A stretch of DNA of 44,239 nucleotides from a virus. The notes below the pieces were generated by a model that saw only the letters and a list, made by a program, of their open reading frames with translations, searched no databases and was not told the origin of the DNA. Positions 3,001 to 43,025 of the stretch are shown in pieces. Positions within the stretch are counted from its first letter, which is position 1, and each line of letters opens with the position of its first letter. The stretch spans positions 1 through 44,239 of the IMG/VR virus record IMGVR_UViG_3300022929_000057; one strand, 5' to 3'. A program made the translations under genes and the position numbers.

Positions 3001-4723
3001 TGTATAAATCTCCAATTGCAGACCCCAATGCTGATTTAAGGAATACAGATGGAATCCCTTCGTCAAGCTCTCCCCCTGGGTTGCGGTTCAATAGCGCCGC
3101 TGGTGCAATCGCACCTATGGTCCTGTCAATCTCACTTAGCCTCTCCTCATCTGGACTTATTTGGCGGAATGTCGATCCAGATATGTTCCTCAGCGCCTCC
3201 ATGGCTGTCCCAACGTATTTGTCAGAGAATTTTACCCGAGACTCAATCTCCTTCTTCTCCATGTAGAGGGCATCGAGATACTTTTTTAACTTTTCCCGGG
3301 GAGTATCACCTGCAAATCTGTTGATCTCCTCCGCCTTCTCAGCATATACTGTTTTTAACTGATCCTCCGGCTTAAACAATCCCTGTTCCTTTAGCTTTAA
3401 CCGGTCAATATTTGCCTGATAGAACTCCTTAATTTGAGATTCCGTAAATCCCAAATCAAAATGAGGTGAGTCTGCAGGCGAAAGTATGTACTTTTCCGAT
3501 TCCGCAATCTCATCGTTTATCTCATTCTTCCTTTTCTCCCGGATATCGAATAGTTGGTCCTCAAATATTGAAGGGTCCTCTCCTGATAGTTTAGCCGCCT
3601 CGATTTCCCTCACCAAGTCATATTCGGCCTTATCTTCATCATCGAGAAGTTCCTGCTCAAACCTCTTCAAACTTAGTCTGAATTCATCCTCTGTCTTTCC
3701 AAGCGCATTGGCGGTTTCCAATACCTTCTTGTCGAACCTCTCCATCTGCTTGCCAGGGAACATGGTTCCAACCTCTTTGTTCAAGGCACCTATTACCGCT
3801 GGGGCCATTACTCCGTATTTCTCGTTTAATTGCTCCTCTGTCATCCCCTCCGCAGCAGTAAGCTCGTCAAGAATCTCCTTGGACCGCTTGGGGTCGGTCT
3901 TCGATGACATGTCCTTGAAATACTGAGAGAAGTTTTCCTTTAGCTGAGAACCCATGGGCATGGATGCAAATTGGTCGTCTACCTCTCCGGTATCGACCTT
4001 TCTTGCCATGTCTAAGTAGTATTCAGATGTAGTCTTTGGCTTTTGAGGCTCAGGGGACGGGGGGCTTATTGGAGACATCTCCGTAGGTAAATTTCCTCCC
4101 AATCCAGATCCCTCTTTGTACGACTTTGTGAATTTATCCGCCTCTTCTTCCGAATTGAAATTTATGATGTTACCTGACTGCTTCGCAACTTCTATGGCCT
4201 TTTGGGGGTCTTTTTCAAAATCAACCAACTTCTTTCCGTCCCAATGAATCATAGGAAAAACAATGGCTCCATCGTCAGTTCCAGCATAGGCTAATCTGTG
4301 AGTTTTTACAGCTCCATCGCCCGCTGGCAATGTGGGGTATTTATCAGGATTTAGTACCCGATCAACAAATGGAACGTCCTTATTGCTCTGAAGTATTTCT
4401 GTAGGAGATTGCTGACCAGATGTGACCTGCTGCGAGGCCAAAGTGCCTGCCTGCATTCCTGAAATAGCCCCAGAAACTTCTGGTTGAACCATTTGGTTCG
4501 GGCTTTTTTTTTCAGAACGAGAGAATTCAGGGAACTTGGAATTTATCTCTTCCCATGTGCTATACTTCCCGCTGCTGGCGGTCGCAGCGTAATCCCTCAA
4601 AATCTGAGAATCGTAGTCCTTCAGTTCAGGGAATTTTGAGTCGATTTCTTCCCATGAATTATACTTCCCGCTGCTGGCGGTCGCAGCGTAATCTTTCAGT
4701 ATTTGTTCTAGTTCCTTGTCCAT
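1..4723 (-). CDS. Giant virion/ejection-type protein, C-terminus cut by window edge
   Basis: The frame opens at ATG 4723 (TAATG overlap with the stop of the upstream gene) and stays open to base 1, giving 1574 codons without a stop. The N-terminus has two 33-residue tandem repeats containing YAATASSGKY and W-EEI. A domain around residues 150-200 has a WDGKKLVDF motif and a -EEEADKF- segment, a pattern I associate with phage internal or ejected proteins. Long charged helical stretches follow, then a Gly/Ala-rich, hydrophobic region at about 620-740 that could contact membrane. Next come Gln/Glu-rich coils and, at about 1180-1265, a compact domain with FHFLSGGRI and an SRGGM end, as in giant polyvalent proteins of Bacteroidota phages. 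The position after two other ejection-like genes supports a role inside the virion. No catalytic motif was seen; an RNA polymerase or other enzyme could lie in the missing C-terminus. The frame is certain, the function inferred. Confidence 0.85.
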   Translation of the reverse strand, partial: MDKELEQILKDYAATASSGKYNSWEEIDSKFPELKDYDSQILRDYAATASSGKYSTWEEINSKFPEFSRSEKKSPNQMVQPEVSGAISGMQAGTLASQQVTSGQQSPTEILQSNKDVPFVDRVLNPDKYPTLPAGDGAVKTHRLAYAGTDDGAIVFPMIHWDGKKLVDFEKDPQKAIEVAKQSGNIINFNSEEEADKFTKSYKEGSGLGGNLPTEMSPISPPSPEPQKPKTTSEYYLDMARKVDTGEVDDQFASMPMGSQLKENFSQYFKDMSSKTDPKRSKEILDELTAAEGMTEEQLNEKYGVMAPAVIGALNKEVGTMFPGKQMERFDKKVLETANALGKTEDEFRLSLKRFEQELLDDEDKAEYDLVREIEAAKLSGEDPSIFEDQLFDIREKRKNEINDEIAESEKYILSPADSPHFDLGFTESQIKEFYQANIDRLKLKEQGLFKPEDQLKTVYAEKAEEINRFAGDTPREKLKKYLDALYMEKKEIESRVKFSDKYVGTAMEALRNISGSTFRQISPDEERLSEIDRTIGAIAPAALLNRNPGGELDEGIPSVFLKSALGSAIGDLYTGQTQQSGSKRLKQALNIAGISEGDLVYGSQEQIDRLSKPYENYSGKDFAQLFGTTTGIIPHFAVGAGVTNAALKGTKLWKGITRLAKEGVLTEAQVAQAQAILRDGTRMQKIATQGGGWIRKVIGAGAKGGTEFGTTGLLFAQDEDAGFLQGLVGGSAGKLVTGGLGGAANFAGKKIQNLFGITAPSEAKKIFDLIIEKGVGETVEEAGEEIVDIWESTEVGKTFWDEFENRYGTIGEKAHFLVSSFVMGNGMGVGSYLGIASTGGIEGQLMDQASNTTGIPDNDMRVVEDFVEEFRQEGINTLEELWDHVINEVQDTDTPADTQQIEVTPEQDAELTAAEAEMDAIQQNIELGNSPGMGDRGVPAQQAIAEMGEAEYAITQVDEQITALEQRLDRATNIDPGNWTDVERQSIQDQINERQKVRSGLQQMVDNPTIRENRKVQEPAQVDEAQVPPQDQPTEPVNEQNQDKPGQSPNDNYTVIRDENSPDGYKITNNTSGNEVKNEASRQRIIERRRKEAQQRGEPETIKDKLSRIDNQSVIDRAIERAEQENKKENDERQKEKVDTPRESNPLPQANVSPPKSKKKKAREKNPVVRRAISKLGRQDTMSPREAVIFHFLSGGRIDRRYIEILFNNDTTEKRKRKGYISESRYPGQTIDDMAHTLWENRREGDSTSSMDFKNAIEEVVREFNSRGGMATDIIGQQNKAEIQEEAAAINAEFMALNEVDLYPIEELEESDGVVQDLMEAIPDEVLAELSARDISDSELLSQLQAEEDLARRTKEADDTKKVLESDVADARAKVASAQNELKKKKDAATKAGKANQLDLMGRAESMEMLFQPDLSVYANNVKKAKAKLEEAKDNLAKAEAKLKEWQPANQAKIDSPVNENQEEIKRILKQAGYDIFNMAGNRNSDLRQRVIELATGTRPPKSKSGINAVKNALYELAGIDSDTEAGKAAALKEWAKESKAKPSTKEKVEPKAEPVQETKGEKVKSLDQVNEG
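4561..4693 (-). repeat. Tandem 99-bp in-frame duplication inside the giant protein gene
   Basis: The 34 bases at 4561-4594 recur identically at 4660-4693, a period of 99 bp or 33 codons. They encode the YAATASSGKY core twice near the protein's N-terminus. The surrounding codons differ between the copies while this core is identical at nucleotide level, which suggests a recent duplication or gene conversion. Confidence 0.9.
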
Positions 4724-15215: not shown

Positions 15216-16613
15216 TTAAGAAGATGGACGAATCAACCAGTAGCGGTTACGGGCCGGAACCATGATTCCGATCTCGCACTTCCAGTGGATGTTCAACTCA
15301 TCAATTTCTGTCTTGTTTTGGCTGGACCAGGCCCCTGTGGACCATTGGAAGTTCTTCCGGCCAGGCAGGTAGCGCAGACACATACCAGGGGTGGTTACGT
15401 TGGTCTTGGGATCCATTACCGTGTCAGTTGGGATGAAGAGTCCCATTTCACTGAAACGATAGTTGGTGTTTCCAAAGGTCTTGGGATGGTTCCACTTCTC
15501 GTACTCCTTGAAGTTGAACTGAATCTCAGTCTTCTTAAAGGAACGGAACTTGTAGGCCAGGGCCACATCCTCACGGCTCAGGAAAGATGCGTAGTTGATC
15601 CCCCCATTGGTAAATGCAGTTGCAAAGAAGTTCTGCAGTTCCTGGTACAGGTCGATTCCCAACCAGCAGTGGTAATTCTTCGCACCGAACTTCCGCTTGA
15701 TCTGCTTGGTGAGCTGATCGATCCACTGGATAGAAATATTGCCGGGAGACCAGGACCATGTGTTTCCGCCTGCAATAATCTCAGGGATTAATCCGTTAGT
15801 AGATCGGGCGGTATCACCCATGTTGAAGAAGTTGTCAGTGCGCTTATGGTGGAGAAGCGCATTGTCCTTCGCATCCTCATAGTTCCAATAGGATTCATCT
15901 GCACCTTTTACAAAGATGTAGTTGCCGCCAGCAGGGACACTTGCTCCGGAAGGGTATTTGATCCCTCCATCACCAGCGGTCTGCACTTGAGGCCAGATTT
16001 TCACCTTCATCTCGGTGCCGGTTATCCGGTAGGAAGCATCGATGATTTCCAGGTCGTTATCGTACTTGGTGAGAACAGGGGTCTTGCCCTCTGGCTGACC
16101 TACACCCTCCGCACGTTGGCGGGAAGCCAGGAACAGTTTGTCTCCACCAGCGATAGCGGGAATAGTATCACCATCTTCCTGTGGGTAGATAGTAAAGGTG
16201 TGGGCATTATTAACAGTCTTGTTTACTGCCCTGATCCTGACGGGAATGATGTCCACCCCTGACTTGATCAACAGGGTGTCGTCCTGCTGCATTGGGGAGC
16301 GGGTTCCGGAGGCATCGTGAGATGCTGCGGCCAGGGTTACTGTGAGTCCGAGTCCAGGACCAGCAGCAGGACCGTATCCGGTTGCCTCTACTTCAAGTTC
16401 TGACTGAATAAAGTCTGTTTCCCACCACTCAAAGGTGACGTTGTTGGCCTCCATGGAAAATCCCATAGAGTCATAAAACTGCATCATGTTTCTCCCGTAA
16501 GATCCGGGATACTTCTCGACAAGTTTTTTGAGTACATCGGGTCGATGAAGACCCGGGTTGTTGGTATTTACTACGTCATAAGTAGTAATGGGGGTTACTG
16601 TTGGCTGTGCCAT
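15216..16613 (-). CDS. Major capsid protein, 465 aa
   Basis: Position (terminase, portal, scaffold-like gene, this gene), length and composition all point to the HK97-fold major capsid protein. The N-terminal arm (about 1-60) carries the LKKLVEKYPGSYGRNMMQF helix. A beta-rich central region contains a Gly/Ala-rich loop at about 80-115. The C-terminal half has aromatic strands (NYHCWLGIDLYQELQNFFA helix, GNTNYRFSEMGLFIP, CLRYLPGRKNFQW) and ends with ARNRYWLIRPS, typical of a closing P-domain strand. I see no protease site. The gene has its own terminator directly after the stop. The fold assignment is inference; the role is fairly secure from context. Confidence 0.75.
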   Translation of the reverse strand: MAQPTVTPITTYDVVNTNNPGLHRPDVLKKLVEKYPGSYGRNMMQFYDSMGFSMEANNVTFEWWETDFIQSELEVEATGYGPAAGPGLGLTVTLAAASHDASGTRSPMQQDDTLLIKSGVDIIPVRIRAVNKTVNNAHTFTIYPQEDGDTIPAIAGGDKLFLASRQRAEGVGQPEGKTPVLTKYDNDLEIIDASYRITGTEMKVKIWPQVQTAGDGGIKYPSGASVPAGGNYIFVKGADESYWNYEDAKDNALLHHKRTDNFFNMGDTARSTNGLIPEIIAGGNTWSWSPGNISIQWIDQLTKQIKRKFGAKNYHCWLGIDLYQELQNFFATAFTNGGINYASFLSREDVALAYKFRSFKKTEIQFNFKEYEKWNHPKTFGNTNYRFSEMGLFIPTDTVMDPKTNVTTPGMCLRYLPGRKNFQWSTGAWSSQNKTEIDELNIHWKCEIGIMVPARNRYWLIRPSS

Positions 16614-17751: not shown

Positions 17752-20163
17752 TTATTGATAATTCGTTGCAGTTGCCTTTTGGGCATTTCTGGCAGCTATT
17801 CTTTCTTTGGATTCGTTGTCCATCTCCTTAGTTTTCCTGTCCTCTTCGCCTTTTGCACGAATCTTTTCAAGTTCAGTTTCGCGCTTTTCACCCTCTTTCA
17901 TGTCATCCCTCATGTACTCCATCTCGTACTTCTGGCTCTGGACCTGTATAGCTTGTTGGGCCGCGAGGTCTAGCTGCATTTGAAGCAATTCCTTTTTCCT
18001 CTCGAATTCAGCCACAGCATACTGCTCCTCAATCTCCTTTATGGCCTTTGTCTTTTCGATCTCCGCTTGGGCAGCAGCCTGGATTTGCTCCTGTCCGGTT
18101 TGGGATCTCATTTGCTCCATCCTCTGTTCCTGTTCCTGGGCTTCCCGTTTCCTTGCATCCAGCCGCCTGCGGAATTCCATAGCGGCTCTCTTTACGTTCC
18201 TGATGCCCTTGATGTATAGATAGTCCTCCATATCAAGGCCAGGCTTCCCACCAGTCTCCCGGAGTTCAAGCTGCTTAAGCATTGCCTGCTCTAATAGCAT
18301 CCACTCATTCTCGTCCGGCTCAAACTCAGTGAAGATACCAAAGTCATGCATCCGTATATCGGCTGTTAGTTCTGCCATCTTCCCATTAGAGGAGCCGATA
18401 CCATTTACATATTTCCTGATAGTTCCATCCTGAACCATCAACTGTAAAATGGATAATATTCTCTCACCAGTCTTTCTTGCCAGAAACTCTGATCCAGCAA
18501 CAATGGCCTGTATGGCATTTGAGTTGGTAGCCACACTCAGTTTGGTGGCGGTAACGCTCTGCCTTTCCGGGGCAATGCTCTGAACCTGCTGGGTTCCGCA
18601 TATCCCCTCAATTTCCCGGATTTTGTTTGACAACAGCTCCGTGTACTGCATCACCTCCGGGGGTAGCCCTCCCCTCAGCTCCTTAAATGAGTCACCTACA
18701 TATTCACCTGCATCATTCCGACTGGCCGCTAGTGCCACACCTGTCCCCATATACAACTCAATCACCTCTATTGGCTCAAAGTATTCCCCGTCACCCTTCA
18801 TTACATTGGCAATTGCCTCCGGGGAAACTACGAATCCAGGAGGAGGTGACTTCAATACTGCAGCCATCAGCTTGAGCCTGTAGATCATGTAGTCATCTAC
18901 CAGTGGTTTCGCCCGTTCGACAATAGACTTGCTGTCTCCGTCTACCATGCCAATTCCGTAGAACTGGAACGGAAGTACGCATTCTGAGATAGATCCAGGC
19001 TTGGTAGCCATGTTCTCCCCTAGCTTGTACTTAAATATGTGATCAGTACCTACTATCCAAAATCCTTCGTAGTAAACAGTGTAGTCAATCTCTTCCCTCT
19101 TGTTCTTGCCAGATGGTTTGTACCCATAATCTGCGGGACGGAGCATTTTACCACCTAGCTTTGTGTCCTTTTTTCTCCAAACTTTCTTGTTGTTGCGCTT
19201 AAAACAGAAATACATCACCTTCACAGTGAATGCATCATATGGCTTTCCGTTCTCGTAGTAGCTATTCAAAGACCCCTGGGAAAATCCTTGGCTGGACTGG
19301 CTCATTGCGGATGATCCGTATTGCTCAATTACCTGCCTCAGCTCATCCTCGGATATTTCCTGACCGGCCAGTTCCCGGAGAGTGGAGGCCTGCATGTCCA
19401 ATATTTCCCCGCAGTGGCGTATGTTCCCGAATTTATTGTCATTTGTATAATCAACAATCGCCCGTTTGGGGTCAACCCGTTTTGTGACCACCCTCCCTTT
19501 TGAGTCCAAATATGTCCTGGTGCCTCCTAGTGTGGTTGTGGCCAGATCATCAATTACACGCTTGAATTCTTCCATGAACTCATTCATCTGGAATACCATG
19601 TCGATTCCAGTTTCTGCCATGATCTCATAAGGAGTCTTGAAATCGTAGGTCATCTTAGCCTCTAATTCCTCCTCATCCTTTGGTAACTTGGATATATCCG
19701 GCATCGGGGCCCCGATTGCCTCCCGGAAACTCTGTATCCACCCCTCTTCTACCAGGCCCATGAAGGCCCTGGTCTCCTCCATGTACTTCATCCTTTCATT
19801 GTCTGCCTCCGGGTCAGTGGCCTTGCATGTGACGTTCAGGCCCCTTTTCTCAAGGGAGCCAATTATCACATCAATAATCTGAGGTAGAGGGGATACGATC
19901 TCAAAATCAAGGTTCAAAAGGGTCTTATTGTTTCCCAGTACTGACTTTAGGTATTCAAAGTGTTTCTTGTACTTTGAATTGTCCTGAGTACCCATTCTGT
20001 ACCTTTGGTTCTCTTTATACCTCTGCTTTGCCCTGGAAAACAAGTTGGCACCATGCATCTGGTATTCCTGATACATGGCCTTGGCGTAATCCAGCCCGTA
20101 TTTTTTAGTAGCTTTCTCTTCGTTTGATACGAAGTCGCTTGGATATCCGTTTTGCTCATTCAT
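17752..20163 (-). CDS. Portal protein, 803 aa
   Basis: The protein forms the ring at the packaging vertex. It has the long crAss-like portal layout: an N-terminal helix (YGLDYAKAMYQEYQ), then RYRMGTQDNSKYKKHF, then LLNLDFEIVSPLPQIIDVII with a GSLEKRGLNV segment, matching the G-Q-d-S-KYKK ... D-s---I-PkF-d---g--EKReyn pattern I know from these phages. The middle is mixed alpha/beta with YTVYYEGFWIVGTDHIFKYKLG. From about residue 660 to the end it is a highly charged Glu/Lys/Gln coiled coil, suited to protrude into the capsid. The start overlaps the terminase stop by four bases (ATGA). Confidence 0.85.
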   Translation of the reverse strand: MNEQNGYPSDFVSNEEKATKKYGLDYAKAMYQEYQMHGANLFSRAKQRYKENQRYRMGTQDNSKYKKHFEYLKSVLGNNKTLLNLDFEIVSPLPQIIDVIIGSLEKRGLNVTCKATDPEADNERMKYMEETRAFMGLVEEGWIQSFREAIGAPMPDISKLPKDEEELEAKMTYDFKTPYEIMAETGIDMVFQMNEFMEEFKRVIDDLATTTLGGTRTYLDSKGRVVTKRVDPKRAIVDYTNDNKFGNIRHCGEILDMQASTLRELAGQEISEDELRQVIEQYGSSAMSQSSQGFSQGSLNSYYENGKPYDAFTVKVMYFCFKRNNKKVWRKKDTKLGGKMLRPADYGYKPSGKNKREEIDYTVYYEGFWIVGTDHIFKYKLGENMATKPGSISECVLPFQFYGIGMVDGDSKSIVERAKPLVDDYMIYRLKLMAAVLKSPPPGFVVSPEAIANVMKGDGEYFEPIEVIELYMGTGVALAASRNDAGEYVGDSFKELRGGLPPEVMQYTELLSNKIREIEGICGTQQVQSIAPERQSVTATKLSVATNSNAIQAIVAGSEFLARKTGERILSILQLMVQDGTIRKYVNGIGSSNGKMAELTADIRMHDFGIFTEFEPDENEWMLLEQAMLKQLELRETGGKPGLDMEDYLYIKGIRNVKRAAMEFRRRLDARKREAQEQEQRMEQMRSQTGQEQIQAAAQAEIEKTKAIKEIEEQYAVAEFERKKELLQMQLDLAAQQAIQVQSQKYEMEYMRDDMKEGEKRETELEKIRAKGEEDRKTKEMDNESKERIAARNAQKATATNYQ

Positions 20164-22253
20164 GCGCTCTTGTCAAAGATACGGAAAAAATTAAGTTTTT
20201 TATCCCCGGGTAGGTTGACCCTCTTGGGCTTGCGTCTATTCGCAGCCAATAATGCCAAACCTTTGGCTACCGTCTGGTCAGAATCAGTGGTTTTTGATGG
20301 GTCGAATCCTTCCATATCTTCCAATCCCTCATAATCCCAGTATCTACGCCAATTATTCTCAAAATGCTCTGCAAGAGTAACAGTGTACTGCTCAATCACC
20401 TTCTTGTCTGAGTGGATACCCTTGTCTTCAGCCCTCTTCTTGTTATACTCAGACTTCGTATTTTCTGGCCGGTCCAGGGAGAATCCACCAAGTCTATCAT
20501 TCTTAAAGAAGTTGATCGTAACCGTTTTGTTTCGCTCAATCAATGCAGGACACCCAAAAAACCAGAGGAATTTTAGGATATCCTCATTCATAAGGGATGT
20601 GGTTTGGGCCCTGTAGGTATAGCTGGCTACAAAATTATCACTCACCCAGCCTATCTCATCACCTGCGGCGTAGTCATCAACATCCTCATTTGGATACATA
20701 TAAATCTCCACAGAGCAATTGGACCCCTTGCCTTTTACCACATCGATCCCAAATGGGTCAACCCCCGCTGCAAACCTGTGGGCATTTTGGGGTTTCCTTC
20801 TTGAATCAACTTTATTTAACCATTCTGATGGGGGCATCCAGCGGATCTTGTACCTCCCGTTGGAATCAGGCTTGGCAATTACTTTCGAGAATTTAACTCC
20901 GTTTTCCCATTCAAGTCGATACCTTTGGCTCGGGAGTTTTTTGGGGTTCTCAAGGATGAATGACTTTTGGTCAATCACCTTCTTGATATTGAACGGAGAA
21001 TCTTTCTCAGCCCATCTGAACAGTTCAGCCTCATTTAATGGAAACTGACGGATTCTTTCATCCAGCAGATCTTCTGTAATGTTCTTCCTGGAATTCAGGA
21101 TATACTGCCGGGCTCCAATGCCCTCTTCTGCTTTTGGGTCCTTTTTCCTCAGCCAGGCAAGTTGGCTTTTTGTTGGTGGACCAGATATAGATTCTCCGTA
21201 CTCTCCGATAAATCCACCGTAACCCTCATCCGCAGGCAAGAATAGACGGTAAAGATGAGATCCTGTTCGCCAGTTTGTGCCAGCCTCTGCATCTTTGATA
21301 TTTGAGGCCAGGTACAGATTTTGGAACTGAACCCCTCCATCCTTACTCATCTCACCCACAGTAGATGGAATCAGAGCTTTCCCAAGGATATTCTTACCCT
21401 CCATCATAGCAGGACCTACCACTGCCCAGGTCTTTATGATGTTGTTGGGAACCTTTATTTTACCAGCTTCATCATGAATATAGATCTTCATTTTGTGACC
21501 ATCGTAGCTGGACTTGTCCGTGGACCTGTAATCAATGGTGTTTTTAAGGGCCCTGTTCTTCTTTTGGTTTACATGATCCTTGTTTTTATAGGTGATCATC
21601 TGGCTGGGCTCAAACATTTCCAGCTTTGTTTTTGGCCTGGTACTGCCGGATGTCTGGGGTCTGAAGTACTGGGGAAGGTCGAAATAGGCATCCACAACCC
21701 GGTCAAAGAACTTGCTGGCATCAGCCATTGTCTGAGACTGTATCCCAGCGTTGCAATTACGTACCATTGTCATCGTATTGATGATGATACTTGCTGCTTT
21801 GGTGGTAGCGCCCTCCCGGCGCATTTTGGCGTAAACAAGTCCCTGACAGTTGGGATCCTTCTCACAGAGGTCCCATACATAGAAGAATTTGGTATCCCTG
21901 TCCCGATAATTTGGGCGGATACCCCCTTCCATGATCATGTACTGGAGATAGAAGTAATGATGTCCGGTAATCCATGTGGCGACCCCGTTATTGAAGAACC
22001 AGAACCCCTCTTTCCTTCTCCTGATCTCCTCAAGGAGCCATTCTGTCTTTTCTGCCTCTGGCAGGGATTCAAATTTCGCCTCTTTGTCCTCCCATTCCCA
22101 CTTTTGGTCCCTGGTTTTCTTTCTGAAGTTGTATATATCAGACCTGTCGCGTGGAGGTTCAGGGATATTTATGGTATAATCAGGATCTTTAGGGTCAAGC
22201 CCTATATCCCGGGTTTTAGCTACCCTCCCATATGATCTCCGGTAATAATTCAT
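20160..22253 (-). CDS. terL: Terminase large subunit (TerL), 697 aa
   Basis: This is the ATP-driven packaging motor and DNA-cleaving nuclease. A leading domain carries EGFWFFNNGVATWITGHHYF (83-102), a hallmark I associate with crAss-like TerL. An atypical Walker A segment KMRREGATTKAAS lies at 143-155, and Walker B is KIYIHDEAGK with D261-E262. The RNase H-like nuclease has candidate acidic residues D499 (AAGVDPFG), E573 (ALIERN) and D656/D658 near SKTTDSDQ. The length is typical of crAss-like enzymes rather than the roughly 450-600 aa of most phages. It is coupled by ATGA overlaps to the possible small terminase upstream and to the portal gene downstream. Confidence 0.92.
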   Translation of the reverse strand: MNYYRRSYGRVAKTRDIGLDPKDPDYTINIPEPPRDRSDIYNFRKKTRDQKWEWEDKEAKFESLPEAEKTEWLLEEIRRRKEGFWFFNNGVATWITGHHYFYLQYMIMEGGIRPNYRDRDTKFFYVWDLCEKDPNCQGLVYAKMRREGATTKAASIIINTMTMVRNCNAGIQSQTMADASKFFDRVVDAYFDLPQYFRPQTSGSTRPKTKLEMFEPSQMITYKNKDHVNQKKNRALKNTIDYRSTDKSSYDGHKMKIYIHDEAGKIKVPNNIIKTWAVVGPAMMEGKNILGKALIPSTVGEMSKDGGVQFQNLYLASNIKDAEAGTNWRTGSHLYRLFLPADEGYGGFIGEYGESISGPPTKSQLAWLRKKDPKAEEGIGARQYILNSRKNITEDLLDERIRQFPLNEAELFRWAEKDSPFNIKKVIDQKSFILENPKKLPSQRYRLEWENGVKFSKVIAKPDSNGRYKIRWMPPSEWLNKVDSRRKPQNAHRFAAGVDPFGIDVVKGKGSNCSVEIYMYPNEDVDDYAAGDEIGWVSDNFVASYTYRAQTTSLMNEDILKFLWFFGCPALIERNKTVTINFFKNDRLGGFSLDRPENTKSEYNKKRAEDKGIHSDKKVIEQYTVTLAEHFENNWRRYWDYEGLEDMEGFDPSKTTDSDQTVAKGLALLAANRRKPKRVNLPGDKKLNFFRIFDKSA

Positions 22254-22801
22254 ATAAGGCTCTCAACTGAGTGTCTGCCAACATTTACCAAAATGTCCTT
22301 TTTCACCTTTGAGTTGGGGAATAGATATGTCTCAAGTTCAATGATCTCGGTCTGCATTTCCTTTGAAATTTCAGAACACTTACCGAAAATAGCATATGAC
22401 CGGATCACTTTGTCCTCATCAAGGTGCTTCGTTTTTCCGTCCTCGGTTATCTCAGTCTCATCCACAGGCTTTCTTAACCGCTCAAGAATATTTGAGTACG
22501 CCATACGAAGAGAAACCCATCTGTTGAACCTGAGATCGTCTGCCAGGTACAACATCCTGGTCATGGCATCCAGCATGCAATCGCTATCCACCTCGCCTTT
22601 ATATCCGGATTCAATTCGGCAATCCTCTACTCTCTGGTCAAGAATCTTTTGGCTTATGATTGAATTTGGGTCCGTAAAAAGACTTAGGTATTTAAGCTGA
22701 TCGTTTTCCAGATCCTTGGTTTCAGGGAACTTTGTTAGTATCGGGTACTCCTCCAGCATGTTTTCTACCGGAGGGAATATCATTTCGCTTAACTGGCCCA
22801 T
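22250..22801 (-). CDS. Unknown 183-aa protein, possible small terminase subunit
   Basis: The product is helical and acidic, with no recognised domain. It starts 12 bases inside the end of the GroES-like gene and overlaps terL by four bases (ATGA), so it is co-translated with the packaging motor. Small terminase subunits are usually encoded directly upstream of terL, have this size, and are helical. The position is the only support for that role; I see no clear HTH for DNA recognition. Confidence 0.55.
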   Translation of the reverse strand: MGQLSEMIFPPVENMLEEYPILTKFPETKDLENDQLKYLSLFTDPNSIISQKILDQRVEDCRIESGYKGEVDSDCMLDAMTRMLYLADDLRFNRWVSLRMAYSNILERLRKPVDETEITEDGKTKHLDEDKVIRSYAIFGKCSEISKEMQTEIIELETYLFPNSKVKKDILVNVGRHSVESLI

Positions 22802-23631
22802 TTGAAGAATATTGATTCTGCATTTTTGTTATAGCACAGCTTGTATTTCTCCCCATCAATGAATACATCCGGAACCGCATAGTCCACAGAAACGCGATCA
22901 CCGGGCTTTACCATGGAGTTAGGTCCAGACTTATATACTACCCCATTTCTGGGACCGTTTTTCTTTTTGGTGAAAACAACCAGCCCTCCATGCATGTACG
23001 CATCTTCCCGGAAGGCTCCGTCAACTACGATACCGTCAACTTTTACCAAGGCATAGTGGTCAAGTACCTCCAAGCCATTTACGGCAAAAATATCCGCCTT
23101 GTCGATATACCAGTCCCCATCTTTCTTGATAGGGATGTCTGTTCCGGGCATGTGCCAGATGATATCCCCCTTCTTTAATCCGAATCCGTCACGGATCACC
23201 TTGGACTTGCTTGCCACCTGCTCTGGTTGGGTGGTGGTCAGAAGAGTTACCGGGCCATTGGGAGTGGGCACAACCTTCTCATTTGGCTCGAAAATCTGCT
23301 CAATCATAACCCGGTTGTTGTAACCCCGCATCTCTCCTTCATGAGTGACGAAATAGACACTTTCCGGGATAATTGCCCAAAGGTCATTTTCCTCATCCAT
23401 CAGGTTGTCTTTGGGGGCTTCCTTCATGGTGGGGATACAATGGTAGTCGAATGTAAGTTCATCTCCGGGAAAAACGTCCGGATCCGGGCTGGCAATGACA
23501 ATGCCTCGCACAACTCCGTTTTCGTAAACATTGTGCTGGATTGCCATATTTCGGGGCAAAATTAGGCCATTGTGGACAAATTCTTCATTGTCACGGATTG
23601 GCTTAACGATAAATCTTGATACTGCTTTCAT
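22789..23631 (-). CDS. GroES-like protein with three tandem repeats, 280 aa
   Basis: Three consecutive segments each look like a GroES co-chaperonin barrel. Repeat 1 (1-96) has RFIVKPI, NGLILP, GVVRGIVIASP, FPGDELTFD and DLWAIIPESVYFV. Repeat 2 (104-185) has NNRVMIEQI, KVIRDGFGLKKGDIIWH and WYIDKADIFAV. Repeat 3 (188-280) has HYALVKVDG, GGLVVF, GVVYKSG, VKPGDRVSVD and AESIFFK. The order (first strand, mobile-loop position, G-V strand, P/K-GD turn, final strand) matches GroES. Bacterial GroES is a single domain of about 95 aa. The ATG at 23631 is chosen because GAGGA lies just before it; the frame also opens at GTG 23646. It probably helps a host or phage chaperonin fold capsid proteins. It is the first gene after the 23.7-kb terminator. 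Confidence 0.7.
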   Translation of the reverse strand: MKAVSRFIVKPIRDNEEFVHNGLILPRNMAIQHNVYENGVVRGIVIASPDPDVFPGDELTFDYHCIPTMKEAPKDNLMDEENDLWAIIPESVYFVTHEGEMRGYNNRVMIEQIFEPNEKVVPTPNGPVTLLTTTQPEQVASKSKVIRDGFGLKKGDIIWHMPGTDIPIKKDGDWYIDKADIFAVNGLEVLDHYALVKVDGIVVDGAFREDAYMHGGLVVFTKKKNGPRNGVVYKSGPNSMVKPGDRVSVDYAVPDVFIDGEKYKLCYNKNAESIFFKWAS

Positions 23632-24998: not shown

Positions 24999-25033
24999 TA
25001 TCTTCATAACGTATTTTTTAGAGGGTTATTGTT
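24999..25033 (-). promoter_or_regulatory. Phage-type promoter upstream of the lipoprotein gene
   Basis: AACAATAACCC, 11-base spacer, CGTTAT on the minus strand. The upstream box overlaps the last codons and stop of the 649-aa fibre gene. Predicted +1 is 24999, giving a 35-base leader before ATG 24964. Confidence 0.5.
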
Positions 25034-26967
25034 CTCCAGAATGTATAAACGTCAATTGAGCCAGTTCCTGCGGTTGGGTTTCCAGCCTCTACTGAAATCT
25101 CAATGCCTGTATCCTCGATCATTTCAACAGCGCCTGAGCCTAAAGAAGCTGACCTTGGAATCATTTTTTGAATGGTAATATACCCATTTGAGATGATCGT
25201 GGTATCCCTGAAGGTATATCCACCGGAGCCGATTGTCCTGACTACTACATTCGTGTTTGTGGCGTAAGCTACCCCAATAAAGTTATGGCGAATCACCACA
25301 TCGAGGACATCCACTACCGTTCCTACACCTTGGGGTCCTACCAGTTGGACCGGTGTAGCGTTTAATGTAAGTACATCGCCAGTTGCGATTGTGATCTTGG
25401 AAACATTTACTCCCGTCCCAAGTGATGCTTGCAATGCCGCTGATAGCTTTGTCTGGTCAACCGCATTGGCGGCTATCTTTGCGGTGGTTACGGCAAGATC
25501 GTCTATTTTGGCAGTCGTGACACCGAGATCATTGATCTTTGCAGTGGTCACGTTCAGGTCAGTAATCTGGGCAGTCCCTACCGCATCATCGGCTATCATG
25601 CTCTGGATAATCCAGTCGGCCTTCTGTGGATCGGTGCTGAGGTTGTAGTGGAGACTTGATCCGTCATAAGACCAGTCTACCCTCCAGGCTCCGGTTAAGG
25701 CAATCTGGGCATTGATAGAATAGCCGCAGACCGTAAGGGTGTTACCGTTGATGTCAATGGCACTCCCAGTCCCGCTGATCCAGCCCTGATCACCCGCAAC
25801 TGCATCAGTAGGGTCAACAGTAACAGTGTAGCCACTCGTAAGTGTAGGACTCCCCTGCAGGAGGAGATTATTGTAACCATTGGGACTCGACCCTGTGTTT
25901 CCGGGAGTAAGCGCAAAACTGCCGCCACCATTGGGAACTGTGATCTCATGGTTCCCCGGGCGAAGTGCTGTGCCAGCTACCGCACGGACGTTCCCAGCGG
26001 TTATTGTGTTGTTCGTCCGCCCAGTCTCCCCGTACACAAATCCGTTTACCGGGTCATTGTAGTAGATCAGTGAGATAAAATTCGGAGTTCCCTCGCTGAC
26101 ATAACTCGTCTGGTTGTCCAGATACAAATTCTCCCCCGTTGTGGTGCTCACACTTACGTCCCGGGCCGTGAAGCCGTTTCCGGCACCAGCGCCCACCAGG
26201 AGGATAGTGTCTCCAGACGTGGCTCCGTTGCCAATAATTACGTCAAGATTTCCTCCACCGCCCTGGACAATGATCAGTGTGGCGTGTTGCTTCCTCGTAT
26301 ATGTGATCGTATTCCCGGTCAATGTGACCGTCTGGATATCAGTTGCACCCTGGACACCAGTTAAGTTTAAGCTTTCAGTGATCTCAAATGCACTCGCAGA
26401 AAGAGTCCCCTTTACCGCAGTTACCGTAGGGTCCAGGAAAGTCCTGGTGCCGGCCATGAACTTCCGGGTGTCATATCCCAAAGAGGGGTCAGACCCACTG
26501 TGAATGATCGTGTCACTGGCAGCAGTAAGGGTGAAATTGCTTGGGGTTGTCAGGGTATAGGCAATCGCATCTCCATTGGCAGTTGTGCCGGTAGATGGAG
26601 AAGCAAACCAGGTCATGGTACTCCCCTGGACTTTTATCGTGTAATTGGGGCCGGATGCCGGGGTGCTACTATTCACCATTGCGGCAACCGCTGCAATATC
26701 GGTAGCGACCACTCCACTAATTGCTACACTGCTGCTGATCTGGTTTACGCCATTGATGGTAATGCTTGTGATCGTATCCGAACCGGTTGAAGATACCTCC
26801 TGGACCGCATAAGCCAGTCTCTCACCTACAGGAGGACTATTGGTTAGTCCATTCATCCTGGCAGCAAGTGCATTTATGGGGGTGTTTTCATATCCCCCGC
26901 CAATGATGTTGCCGGATGAATCTACCGGGTAGATGAAGCCTACATTATTGCCAAGAAATTCGATCAT
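25018..26967 (-). CDS. Fibre/appendage protein with VTTAKI repeats, 649 aa
   Basis: The sequence is Thr/Ser/Gly/Asn-rich and beta-dominated throughout, with a start (MIEFLGNNVGFIYPVDSSGN) typical of tail or head fibre proteins. At about residues 462-509 there is a run of near-perfect ten-residue repeats (VTTAKINDLG, VTTAKIDDLA, VTTAKIAANA), a pattern of trimeric fibre shafts. The last 120 residues would be the tip domain. A collar, head or tail attachment cannot be distinguished. It overlaps the 520-aa gene by four bases (ATGA). Confidence 0.65.
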   Translation of the reverse strand: MIEFLGNNVGFIYPVDSSGNIIGGGYENTPINALAARMNGLTNSPPVGERLAYAVQEVSSTGSDTITSITINGVNQISSSVAISGVVATDIAAVAAMVNSSTPASGPNYTIKVQGSTMTWFASPSTGTTANGDAIAYTLTTPSNFTLTAASDTIIHSGSDPSLGYDTRKFMAGTRTFLDPTVTAVKGTLSASAFEITESLNLTGVQGATDIQTVTLTGNTITYTRKQHATLIIVQGGGGNLDVIIGNGATSGDTILLVGAGAGNGFTARDVSVSTTTGENLYLDNQTSYVSEGTPNFISLIYYNDPVNGFVYGETGRTNNTITAGNVRAVAGTALRPGNHEITVPNGGGSFALTPGNTGSSPNGYNNLLLQGSPTLTSGYTVTVDPTDAVAGDQGWISGTGSAIDINGNTLTVCGYSINAQIALTGAWRVDWSYDGSSLHYNLSTDPQKADWIIQSMIADDAVGTAQITDLNVTTAKINDLGVTTAKIDDLAVTTAKIAANAVDQTKLSAALQASLGTGVNVSKITIATGDVLTLNATPVQLVGPQGVGTVVDVLDVVIRHNFIGVAYATNTNVVVRTIGSGGYTFRDTTIISNGYITIQKMIPRSASLGSGAVEMIEDTGIEISVEAGNPTAGTGSIDVYTFWRTITL

Positions 26968-28526
26968 TTTATGTCGAGGGTTATTTTTAACTCTATAACT
27001 GCAATATTTGCAGCCTGTATTGACTGGATGTCAATGTTGGGGCCCCATGGCCACCGGAATCCAACCCGGAAGTTTTGAGTGAAAACGCTGTCATCCCGGT
27101 AGAATACAAATGCCTCAGGAGGATATTGAACCACTCTCCCGCCTACATCGATAGTCGTTACTTCAACTCCGGGAACAAATGGGTCATTGCCTGTTCCGGA
27201 TGCCAGGAATCCACTAACCTCGAACTCCGCGTTATCCAGGATCGTTCCAGCCAGATTCGTGATCGTCCAGCTACTATATGGGTTGAACTTTGTACCGTAG
27301 TTATTCTCCTCCTGAACAGAGTATGTAGGCAGGCCTCCCCCACTGAAGTTTATATTTACAATACCAGACCAGCGATGAACTTGCTCGATCGTAGAATTTA
27401 TTGTGTCTGTTCTTTCGTCAGGATTTCCGGACACAGTGGATCTCGTTATTGATATCCCTGTGCCGGCTACATTGTTTGTATTGTAAGTGTTGTTCAGGAT
27501 TGCCTGGCCTGAAGCACTCAATCCAATAGTAAAATTAGGGTGAATACCAGACACATCCAGAAATGCAGCCTGGGTAATAGTTACCGTGGATCCGCTACCG
27601 CTGCACAATGGGCTGATCAGGGAGGGTTGTCCATCTCCACACCCACAGCATCCATCCGTGACATTCAGTATGTTTTTAATCTCCGATACCAATGCTGCCA
27701 TGGTTTCCCCGTCCCCGCAATCCTGAGATTGAGCAAAATGAGTTACCCTTGAACTGACTTTATGGTAGGTGTACTCAGCAGTGTCCTTATCCCTGCTTTT
27801 TGCCTCAAGTACCCTGTTCCTAGCAATGGACATCAGGCACTTTAACTCACATGCACTGATACACTCAAATTCACCTTTGAATGTTTCAGTCCTAACATAC
27901 GTTTCTGTTACTGCCCCTATTGTTCGCTGGATAGTAATTGCCAGCTTCGCCTCATAGGTTCCAGACCAGGCGGAGCTACTTCCGGTGTCGATCCTGTCCT
28001 GGGTTGCCAGGGTGGTTGCCCAGCTAGTCCCCTGTGGTCCGTAAAGGGTTAGGGTCCTAGCTGTAATCGACCAGGGAGTTTCGTTTGGTGGGAAATATGC
28101 CGTTGAGTCTACTGCTGTGACAAGGGGCCCACAAAGGCAATTGAAAGTAAGGTCAACATCCGGGTATGGTCCATCATTACAGAATGTGGCCGTGACCGTT
28201 TGGGTGATCGTGGCTCCGGTGCTGATCTGCTTTATTGTGACTTTGAAGCTGTATGTGCCAGTTACAAATACCCCGTTTACATCCTTTGGGAAAATAATAG
28301 GTATGGCATTTACCAGGGAGGTGTCGTAATCCCAGACTACTGTTCCAGCCAGATCCCCGTAAGCCACTGTTCCGGCACCACTGGCAACCTCCACAATCCC
28401 TATCGCATCATTCAAAGCTACCCCATTCGCTACGAGGTCAGAAGAGTCCGTAAGGACTATCCGAGCATTTTGACTCTGGAAATCGATCCCAAGGGAGATT
28501 GTGACGTTTGATAGGGACATGCCCAA
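26964..28526 (-). CDS. Fibre-associated or head decoration protein, 520 aa
   Basis: The first 220 residues are beta-rich, in two or three probable Ig-like sandwiches with aromatic strands (VVWDYDTSL, YSFKVTIKQ, YEAKLAITIQR). A short helical, cysteine-containing middle follows (ECISACELKC, and CCGCGDG near residue 294), then another beta domain whose end matches fibre heads. The many cysteines would be unusual in a cytosolic tail protein. No family was recognised. It is the first gene of the two-gene fibre unit and follows a terminator-like hairpin. Confidence 0.6.
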   Translation of the reverse strand: MGMSLSNVTISLGIDFQSQNARIVLTDSSDLVANGVALNDAIGIVEVASGAGTVAYGDLAGTVVWDYDTSLVNAIPIIFPKDVNGVFVTGTYSFKVTIKQISTGATITQTVTATFCNDGPYPDVDLTFNCLCGPLVTAVDSTAYFPPNETPWSITARTLTLYGPQGTSWATTLATQDRIDTGSSSAWSGTYEAKLAITIQRTIGAVTETYVRTETFKGEFECISACELKCLMSIARNRVLEAKSRDKDTAEYTYHKVSSRVTHFAQSQDCGDGETMAALVSEIKNILNVTDGCCGCGDGQPSLISPLCSGSGSTVTITQAAFLDVSGIHPNFTIGLSASGQAILNNTYNTNNVAGTGISITRSTVSGNPDERTDTINSTIEQVHRWSGIVNINFSGGGLPTYSVQEENNYGTKFNPYSSWTITNLAGTILDNAEFEVSGFLASGTGNDPFVPGVEVTTIDVGGRVVQYPPEAFVFYRDDSVFTQNFRVGFRWPWGPNIDIQSIQAANIAVIELKITLDIK

Positions 28527-39004: not shown

Positions 39005-39781
39005 TTAGAACAAGGTGGGTTGGTCATTCTTCTTTGGTTTTGGTTTCTTCTCTTTCCCATGATAAATCCTGTCCCACGCTGTCTGGAAGATTTCAGGGTC
39101 TTTCTCGATGCCTATGAACTTCCGGTTGAGCAACTTGCAGGCCACACCCGTTGTTCCTGATCCCATCGTGAAGTCCAGAACGGTGTCTCCCTCGTTGGTG
39201 TAGGTTTTGATAAAGTAAATCATCAACTCAACTGGCTTTTCGTTAGGGTGAAGTTTTCCGGAGCTATTGTGGACGCATTTTATGTGGTCAATTACCGTAT
39301 CCGGATTAATCCAATTTGATTGCAAGTCAATATAGTCTTCCCTCTGCGATCCATAAACACTTGTTTTTGAATTCTTCTTATTCCCGGATTTCTGTTCAGT
39401 AGTTCTTTTCCTTTTTTGAGGGTTATATGTAGGTATCGCATCATAAAAAACCGAAATGTATTCGTGACCACCCATCGGCATAAACTTAGCATTTAAGTTT
39501 CCGGTCTTTAGGTTTTTTACCCATACCCAATCGTACTTAAACTTGTGAATATTAGACATTCTAAGGGAACTGCTGAATGGTTCTGCACCGAAAATGCATT
39601 TGGCCGCATTTTTCTTCGATACATAATCCAGGCACTCCCACATCGGCTCAAATGGAATAACAGCATCCCATGCAGACCGGGTTGTGCCGTAGGGAACATC
39701 AGCCAGCACAAGGTCAATGGAACCCGCCTCCAGCTTCGGCATTTCTACCAGGCAGTCCCCTTTAATCAGTTGAATAGACAT
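39005..39781 (-). CDS. DNA methyltransferase (N6-adenine/N4-cytosine type), 258 aa
   Basis: Methylates an amino group in DNA using S-adenosylmethionine. The catalytic motif IV is ADVPYG at 27-32, a DVPY variant of the usual (D/N)PP(Y/F). The AdoMet-binding motif is VLDFTMGSGTTG (201-212), placed after motif IV, which makes this a beta-class enzyme. The C-terminus ends QPTLF, matching the pentapeptide sliding-clamp binding motif. No restriction enzyme lies nearby, so it probably protects phage DNA. The ATG is preceded by AAAGGAG, a strong SD unusual in this window. It has its own intergenic region and terminator. Confidence 0.88.
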   Translation of the reverse strand: MSIQLIKGDCLVEMPKLEAGSIDLVLADVPYGTTRSAWDAVIPFEPMWECLDYVSKKNAAKCIFGAEPFSSSLRMSNIHKFKYDWVWVKNLKTGNLNAKFMPMGGHEYISVFYDAIPTYNPQKRKRTTEQKSGNKKNSKTSVYGSQREDYIDLQSNWINPDTVIDHIKCVHNSSGKLHPNEKPVELMIYFIKTYTNEGDTVLDFTMGSGTTGVACKLLNRKFIGIEKDPEIFQTAWDRIYHGKEKKPKPKKNDQPTLF

Positions 39782-41113: not shown

Positions 41114-41128
41114 GATTTATTCTTTTAG

Positions 41129-41201
41129 TGGTCCCCCGGGGAATCGAACCCCGCATCTTCTGGTTATGAGCCAGGTGCCTTAACCGATTGGCTAGAGGAC
41201 C
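41129..41201 (-). tRNA. tRNA with CAU anticodon (Met, or lysidine Ile2)
   Basis: A 73-base cloverleaf: acceptor GGTCCTC with GGGGACC, D arm GCC/GGC, anticodon loop CTCATAA in a CCTGG/CCAGA stem (outer pair C-A mismatched), and T arm CGGGG-TTCGATT-CCCCG. The discriminator is A and no CCA is encoded. Methionine is likely, but CAU also fits the Ile tRNA that carries lysidine. It lies between two minus-strand genes, probably processed from their transcript. Confidence 0.93.
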
Positions 41202-42508: not shown

Positions 42509-42835
42509 TTATGATGCTCCAGCATCAGGTTTAAAATTCTCGACTCTTTTCCATTGACGGGCCACTTTCCGGTCGATCTCAGCCTGGACATTATCCTCCC
42601 CGAACAAAGTTGGGATGTTTTTCAGGACAATGGAGACATCTGCGGCCTCCTCCACCATGTTTTTTATCAGGGTTTCTTTATCAACATGCTTTCCTGGAAC
42701 TGCATTCGCAGTCTTTCTCAGGAATTTTACAACCGATAACGCCAACTCAAGGCTTTCCTCCACTACCATCAGGAGCTGGGGGTCCTGCCCGTATAACTGA
42801 AGCATTTTTTCGATCAGGGACTGGTCTACTTTCAT
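42509..42835 (-). CDS. MazG-like NTP pyrophosphohydrolase, 108 aa
   Basis: An all-alpha fold with the signature acidic motifs of this family: VVEESLELA (E26-E27, E30) and VEEAADVSIVL (E62-E63, D66), separated by a Lys-rich loop. These bind magnesium in enzymes that cleave nucleotide triphosphates or ppGpp-like signals. ATG 42835 (MKVDQSLIEK) is preferred; the longer frame would run into the 59-aa gene. Phages carry such enzymes to sanitise nucleotides or blunt alarmone signalling; which one is not evident here. Confidence 0.75.
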   Translation of the reverse strand: MKVDQSLIEKMLQLYGQDPQLLMVVEESLELALSVVKFLRKTANAVPGKHVDKETLIKNMVEEAADVSIVLKNIPTLFGEDNVQAEIDRKVARQWKRVENFKPDAGAS

Positions 42836-42845
42836 ATCTGTGTCA

Positions 42846-43025
42846 TTAAGTGGTGAATATTCTTGAAATAAACTCATCAAAAGTCTCGCTGTAATGCTCA
42901 TCGGTCCCAAAAACGAGGTAATGATCAGTCTTTATGAAATGATCCTCTGCGTAGCAGTCATGCTCCCTCAGATGGACTTTGTGTTTTTCAATCAGTTCCC
43001 GAAGCTCTTTCTCAAACTCTTCCAT
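42846..43025 (-). CDS. Unknown acidic 59-aa protein with leaderless start
   Basis: MEEFEKELRELIEKHKVHLR and an aromatic, acidic C-terminal half (YSETFDEFISRIF). The ATG is 12 bases from the C of CGTTAT. First gene of the operon that runs down to the tRNA, divergent from the HTH gene. Function unknown. Confidence 0.65.
   Translation of the reverse strand: MEEFEKELRELIEKHKVHLREHDCYAEDHFIKTDHYLVFGTDEHYSETFDEFISRIFTT

Follow-up and report, generated by a model that had tools for sequence, protein, structure and literature searches.

The window, by which we mean the whole stretch of DNA that was analyzed (44,239 bases, from a virus of Bacteroidota-type bacteria), contains a late-gene block in which two large ORFs, one of them tail-fiber-like (25018–28526), are followed by the gene for a 280-aa protein designated as P0001, a 183-aa gene, and the genes for the terminase, the portal protein, a 360-aa protein, the capsid protein and virion structural proteins. 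The features considered in this study are listed below.

22789–23631, minus strand: P0001, predicted three-barrel GroES-like protein, 280 aa (ORF, profiles, shuffles)
23332–23631, minus strand: predicted barrel 1, residues 1–100, GD turn at 56–57, ortholog of the first barrel in the two-barrel family (hhalign, AF2)
23524–23595, minus strand: putative mobile-loop segment of barrel 1, residues 13–36, N-G-L-I-L-P (alignments; GroES contacts from PMC5575113)
23068–23331, minus strand: predicted barrel 2, residues 101–188, GD turn at 155–156, ortholog of the second barrel in that family (shuffle controls)
23212–23289, minus strand: putative mobile-loop segment of barrel 2, residues 115–140, N-G-P-V-T-L-L (alignments)
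22792–23067, minus strand: predicted barrel 3, residues 189–280, GD turn at 244–245, extra C-terminal barrel (Pfam, PHROG and NCBIfam; AF2 and Foldseek; shuffles)
22963–23028, minus strand: putative mobile-loop segment of barrel 3, residues 202–223, G-G-L-V-V (alignments; low-confidence, i.e., flexible, in the barrel-3 model)
22250–22801, minus strand: 183-aa gene between the P0001 gene and the terminase gene, no family found
20160–22253, minus strand: terminase large subunit, 697 aa, synteny anchor (phrog_6681, E = 5.4e-91)
17752–20163, minus strand: portal protein, 803 aa, synteny anchor (phrog_6547, E = 1.1e-76)
15216–16613, minus strand: major capsid protein, SU10-like, possible folding client (Pfam SU10_MCP, E = 5.8e-7, above the cut-off)

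The P0001 ORF runs from an ATG at 23631 to a stop codon at 22789–22791. An upstream GTG would extend the product to 285 aa; we favor the ATG because the Met1 that it encodes aligns with the near-invariant Met1 of a family of two-barrel proteins described below. A second copy of the gene, carried by a 7.6-kb contig with 99% identity, confirmed that the frame is open from barrel 2 through barrel 3. An earlier note on this DNA had placed the gene beside the terminase gene. The two are indeed near each other and belong to the same late-gene run, but they are not directly adjacent, as the 183-aa gene lies between them.

The slot between the tandem GroES-like gene and the terminase gene is variable. 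It is occupied by the 183-aa gene in the window and by a helical gene of 92–113 aa in other loci, and the terminases of phages phi38:1, elemo and Panino are longer at the N-terminus by about 180 aa. It is possible that the slot gene has a small-terminase function and is sometimes fused to the terminase. A correspondence between the 183-aa gene and the N-terminal terminase extension of phi38:1 and elemo received no support (hhalign probability 0.2%).

The record is a fragment, since its left end cuts an ORF of at least 1,574 aa (window 2–4723, minus strand) and related genomes are 60–78 kb long. This truncated ORF contains an 81-nt direct repeat (4526–4606 and 4625–4705) encoding a repeated YAATASSGKYxxWEEIxSKFPE motif. 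Elsewhere, the window carries genes for a DNA methyltransferase (39005–39781) and a MazG-like nucleoside triphosphate pyrophosphohydrolase (42509–42910), as well as a tRNA-Met (41128–41201).

GroES-like barrels of P0001

Direct searches revealed little about P0001: tblastn against 50,697 phage records gave zero matches at E ≤ 0.01, and phmmer against PDB sequences gave nothing relevant (galactose oxidase at E of about 1). Curated GroES models matched the protein solely in its last third, where barrel 3 was hit by Pfam Cpn10 (PF00166; E = 0.0042, 17.5 bits, below the cut-off of 21.1) and, also below threshold, by the PHROG co-chaperonin GroES (E = 0.0012) and NCBIfam GroES (E = 0.003) models. 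A profile built from 59 two-barrel relatives, with P0001 left out, found P0001 at E = 1.8e-10, above all of 2,000 shuffled sequences. When a profile combining the GroES of E. coli with single-domain GroES proteins of phages was used, P0001 was ranked first (E = 0.0053; best of 2,000 shuffles, 0.049), and the single-domain GroES profile produced three collinear matches, one per third of the protein, each of them individually weak.

The barrels were then compared one by one with GroES-type profiles by hhalign, with 150 shuffles of each as a control, and every barrel exceeded 150 of 150 shuffles against at least one such profile. Barrel 1 scored 45.3 against the family's barrel 1 (shuffle maximum, 17.9) and 23.7 against GroES (16.2); barrel 2 scored 25.6 against GroES (21.1) and 27.7 against the family's barrel 2 (18.4); and barrel 3 scored 26.4 against the family's barrel 2 (20.4). 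Against the small phage GroES profile, barrel 3 did not rise above the shuffles (49 of 150). The relatives themselves are recognizable as GroES-like: Pfam Cpn10 matched 25 of the 61 tandem family members at E ≤ 0.1 (best E = 1.2e-10), and profile–profile comparison of the family barrels with GroES gave P-values of 1e-11 to 7e-6. A competing Pfam match, ADPRTs_Tse2 on residues 109–167 (E = 0.0029, 18.7 bits), was rejected; it lies below its cut-off of 26.6, falls on a portion of barrel 2 that can be aligned with the family, and occurs in just 2 of the 61 members, P0001 and one other.

Structure models were examined for the full-length protein and for barrel 3 alone. The full-length AF2 model, based on a 61-sequence alignment, was of moderate confidence (mean pLDDT, 61.7; pTM, 0.56): barrel 1 was mostly high except for its loop, and barrels 2 and 3 were medium to low, with barrel 3 being low. 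Foldseek found no significant PDB match for this model, the best being human Hsp10 at E = 0.51, and further matches included reductases and dehydrogenases with a GroES-like domain. Among the predicted viral structures in BFVD, the model matched a two-barrel cpn10 of phage phi18:3 (E = 2.4e-7) and, in a full-length alignment, A0A516L046, an unnamed viral protein of 304 aa (E = 1.3e-9; TM of about 0.5), which may thus be a second three-barrel GroES-like protein as judged from its predicted structure.

Barrel 3 was modeled alone from an alignment of single-domain GroES proteins and family barrels. Its pLDDT was 72.8, with low confidence only at residues 19–31 and 33–40, which correspond to the mobile-loop position. 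All of the PDB matches ranked 1–25 were Cpn10/GroES-type chains (best E = 5.4e-4; TM of about 0.5–0.65), among them T4 gp31 (1g31), and chains of 7ekq (CrClpP-S2c) were also found among the fold matches. This fold test is supportive but not independent of the hypothesis, because the alignment behind the model was made of GroES-type rows.

Taken together, profiles and models indicate that P0001 consists of three successive GroES/Cpn10-like barrels, a prediction in which both fold and family are well supported. The profiles, the per-barrel shuffles and the barrel-3 model thereby bear out the earlier note's reading of the chain as three GroES-like barrels that resemble GroES in differing degrees, each with a P/K-GD turn (FPGD, KKGD and KPGD in barrels 1, 2 and 3, respectively), and the presence of 1g31 among the matches agrees with its mention of gp31 as a fold relative. 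The structural comparison that it had proposed came out in part: barrel 3 alone adopts a predicted Cpn10/GroES fold, gp31 included, but the full-length model has no significant counterpart in the PDB.

GroES binds GroEL via I25, V26 and L27, of which I25 and L27 are required and V26 is dispensable (PMC5575113). In our alignments, the N-G-L-I-L-P segment of barrel 1 is the equivalent of G24-I25-V26-L27 of GroES, and hydrophobic residues occupy the I25 and L27 positions in barrels 1 (NGLIL) and 3 (GGLVV). The barrel-2 loop (NGPVT) is degenerate, with P and T at these positions. The loop of barrel 1 is also well conserved in two-barrel relatives (e.g., IGGIEFIV), and that of barrel 2 is shortened in most of them. 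The roof hairpin insertion of E. coli GroES is absent from all three barrels of P0001 and from the single-domain GroES proteins of related phages. T4 gp31 likewise lacks a roof, which is thought to suit its larger client, the T4 capsid protein gp23 (PMC6318259).

A two-barrel family upstream of the terminase gene

Relatives of P0001 were reached by synteny, through cultured phages whose terminases are 28–33% identical to that of the window. In most of these phages, a gene of 180–200 aa annotated as co-chaperonin GroES or chaperonin cpn10 lies upstream of the terminase gene, and it encodes two barrels. Its cultured carriers include Cellulophaga phages phi38:1, phi40:1, phi13:2 and phi19:3, the Flavobacterium elemo phages and Maribacter phage Panino; the synteny thus includes Pervagoviridae, Pachyviridae, Elemovirus and Panino, together with many metagenomic relatives. 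In MW202828 the gene is present but unannotated, and in Gundel_1 it was not found upstream of the terminase gene. In phi38:1, elemo and Panino, the two-barrel gene either overlaps the start of the terminase gene or lies directly against it.

Scans with terminase alignments identified 238 loci with a terminase ORF, of which 197 had enough upstream sequence, some contigs being counted twice. A tandem GroES-like gene was located within 3 kb upstream of the terminase gene in 187 of the 197 (about 95%), and the lengths of its products cluster at 170–220 aa. No second three-barrel ORF was found among 190 matched loci besides that of the near-identical contig (99%). Six long ORFs considered as three-barrel candidates (L101, L172, L203, L204, L206 and L209) were instead interpreted as two-barrel proteins that are extended at the N-terminus or, in the case of L172, joined to a helical gene. 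Divergent tandem GroES-like proteins of 266–289 aa with an N-terminal extension are encoded upstream of the terminase gene at L105:435–1235, L203:2085–2954 and L204:604–1410. At L172:2355–3203 (282 aa), a two-barrel protein and the small helical pre-terminase gene share one frame, which represents either a fusion or an assembly error.

P0001 aligns collinearly with the two-barrel proteins from Met1 to about residue 190, and the remaining residues, about 90 in number, form the third barrel. It thus fits the terminase-linked tandem family by its two collinear barrels and by its position upstream of the terminase gene with one gene between, and it departs from the family, whose members have 180–200 aa and no further domain, by its length of 280 aa and its third barrel. 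Gene position, protein start and conserved GD turns are shared with the relatives, whereas the C-terminal barrel and a more GroES-like barrel-1 loop set P0001 apart at 17–24% identity. On the basis of sequence alignment, barrels 1 and 2 are assigned as the two barrels of the family and barrel 3 as an added C-terminal copy. The three-barrel form is thus a lineage-specific extension of a two-barrel family that is widespread in Bacteroidota tailed phages and related metagenomic viruses.

The earlier note had set the triple fusion against the single-domain GroES proteins of phages. The triple chain stands, but the appropriate baseline is the two-barrel protein present at about 95% of the related loci, and the novelty is reduced to one extra barrel. 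The two-barrel phage genes are already known in databases as "co-chaperonin GroES"; what is new here is the natural triple chain, the tandem nature of the family and its terminase context. We found no description in the open-access literature of the two-barrel phage genes as tandem or of their place beside the terminase gene, nor of three natural GroES domains in one chain.

Possible roles of the tandem GroES-like proteins

GroEL was not found in the 44,239-base window, which says little, because the record is a fragment. Among 29 related records, 15 encode GroEL, and all 15 also carry a single-domain Cpn10 gene. The tandem gene is visible in the available sequence of 14 of these 15, and hence at least 14 relatives possess it together with a canonical GroES–GroEL pair. 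Since the pair coexists with it in these relatives, the tandem protein would supplement GroES rather than replace it. The earlier note had envisaged a cap for an unusual chaperonin, which received no support: the related phages that encode GroEL have an ordinary group I protein with its own single-domain GroES. In elemo, phi38:1, Calle, Panino, MW202828 and metagenomic relatives, GroEL, a nearby single-domain GroES and the tandem protein make up a Cpn60 + Cpn10 + Cpn20-like set, as in chloroplasts.

We consider it fairly probable that P0001 is a late-expressed, roofless, concatenated co-chaperonin lid that helps GroEL to fold head or packaging proteins, a function that we infer from the features described above. 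The protein would be expressed together with the late genes and would bind the rim of a chaperonin, either host GroEL or phage GroEL, through its mobile loops. Two or more chains, possibly with single-domain GroES, would close a roofless cap in which the barrels could sum to seven, for example as 3+3+1 for P0001 and 2+2+2+1 for its relatives. Folding or release of a large client from the head or the packaging machinery, namely the capsid protein, the portal protein or the terminase, would be assisted by this cap, and the lid would then leave without becoming part of the virion, in line with the missing virion label of the two-barrel protein in phi40:1 (see below).

Chains of mismatched domain number have precedents in known systems. 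The two-barrel Cpn20 of chloroplasts and apicoplasts is functional on sevenfold chaperonins, both by itself and in mixtures with Cpn10 (PMC5780408, PMC3542282, PMC5575113); Cpn10 and Cpn20 form seven-domain hetero-rings (PMC5780408, PMC3542282); and artificial GroES chains of 6, 7 and 8 domains work with GroEL (PMC5780408, PMC3542282, PMC5575113). The earlier note's argument that a fusion needs a different symmetry is therefore not upheld. Single-ring GroEL still supports folding when its lid is a GroES7 chain in which two of the modules carry mutations (PMC5575113), and a lid with one or two weak loops is therefore plausible. P0001 shares with Cpn20 the head-to-tail arrangement of GroES domains in one chain, but Cpn20 has two domains, both with a mobile loop and a roof (PMC3542282, apicoplast form), and is not viral; with three barrels, no roof insertion and a degenerate barrel-2 loop, P0001 lies outside the Cpn20 type, and no close sequence relation between the two was found. 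The artificial chains, i.e., GroES7 and the 6- to 8-domain forms, similarly unite several GroES modules in one polypeptide with some contact loops altered, but they are engineered, and one chain covers the whole ring. T4 gp31 and other single-domain phage co-chaperonins resemble P0001 in their GroES fold, the lack of a roof hairpin, their phage origin and a plausible service to capsid proteins, whereas they have one domain per chain and form a heptameric ring. To our knowledge, the gp31 gene lies outside the terminase cluster of T4.

Phage GroES analogues are usually regarded as single-domain lids. A triple chain within a large double-barrel family would offer a natural experiment on how lids whose subunit number does not match seven are accommodated by a sevenfold chaperonin. 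A tandem gene beside the terminase gene, often alongside a phage GroES–GroEL pair, points to an unassigned head-assembly step in aquatic phages that are common, and the question can be tested in relatives that have been cultured, namely phi38:1, phi40:1 and the elemo phages. A bolder proposal, to which we give a limited chance, is that the tandem terminase-linked proteins constitute a separate class of viral ring caps: natural GroES concatemers, with intact and altered loop modules, that form asymmetric mixed lids with phage or host single-domain GroES (e.g., 2+2+2+1 or 3+3+1) or cap a non-GroEL ring, and that are dedicated to capsid or packaging-motor assembly. If so, the triple barrel would be the first co-chaperonin with three domains to be found in nature.

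The co-chaperonin reading has its difficulties. A second lid is not obviously needed, as at least 14 related records already contain GroEL and single-domain GroES, and chaperonin binding becomes less convincing as a role common to the whole family, given that most relatives have a shortened mobile loop in barrel 2. In P0001 itself, barrel 2 has P and T at the I25 and L27 positions. Moreover, neither two nor three divides seven, and an oligomer of one kind of chain would have an unfilled site or an unused barrel. The presence of GroEL and single-domain GroES in relatives and the shortened barrel-2 loop would also fit a factor in packaging or head assembly that has the GroES barrel but does not act on a chaperonin, for example, an adaptor associated with the terminase or portal that is made and lost with the packaging motor. 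The strict terminase linkage (187 of 197 loci), the lack of any gap before the terminase start in phi38:1, elemo and Panino (overlap or direct abutment), and the single frame shared by the L172 tandem gene and the small helical pre-terminase gene are consistent with such a factor. In the record of phi40:1, MS/MS labels are attached to the portal, capsid and other proteins, and both the tandem GroES-like protein (gp089) and the terminase (gp090) are unlabeled; this shared absence also fits, although an absent label is weak evidence. However, the barrel-1 mobile-loop segment is visibly conserved in the family, barrels 1 and 3 of P0001 have GroEL-type contact residues, and the small terminase is more likely to be encoded by the small helical gene, which is separate. 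We therefore regard the packaging factor as possible but rather unlikely.

Other explanations fare worse than a co-chaperonin lid. The third barrel might be a degenerate or recent duplication without a role of its own, so that P0001 works exactly like its two-barrel relatives, in line with the restriction of the three-barrel form to the window and one 99%-identical contig and with the low AF2 confidence of barrel 3 in the full-length model; this is improbable, given that the frame of barrel 3 is open, that its mobile-loop motif and GD turn are retained and that the curated GroES models match this very barrel. Least probable of all is that P0001 caps a ring other than a chaperonin, for example that of the protease ClpP, so that entry into the protease would be plugged or gated by a co-chaperonin ring during infection: chloroplast CPN11, CPN20 and CPN23 form a co-chaperonin complex on ClpP (PMC8889267), which inhibits ClpP according to the title of a preprint cited there, and 7ekq chains are among the barrel-3 fold matches, but the resemblance is one of fold, common to all GroES proteins, and the P0001 gene lies in the late structural block rather than among early host-takeover genes.
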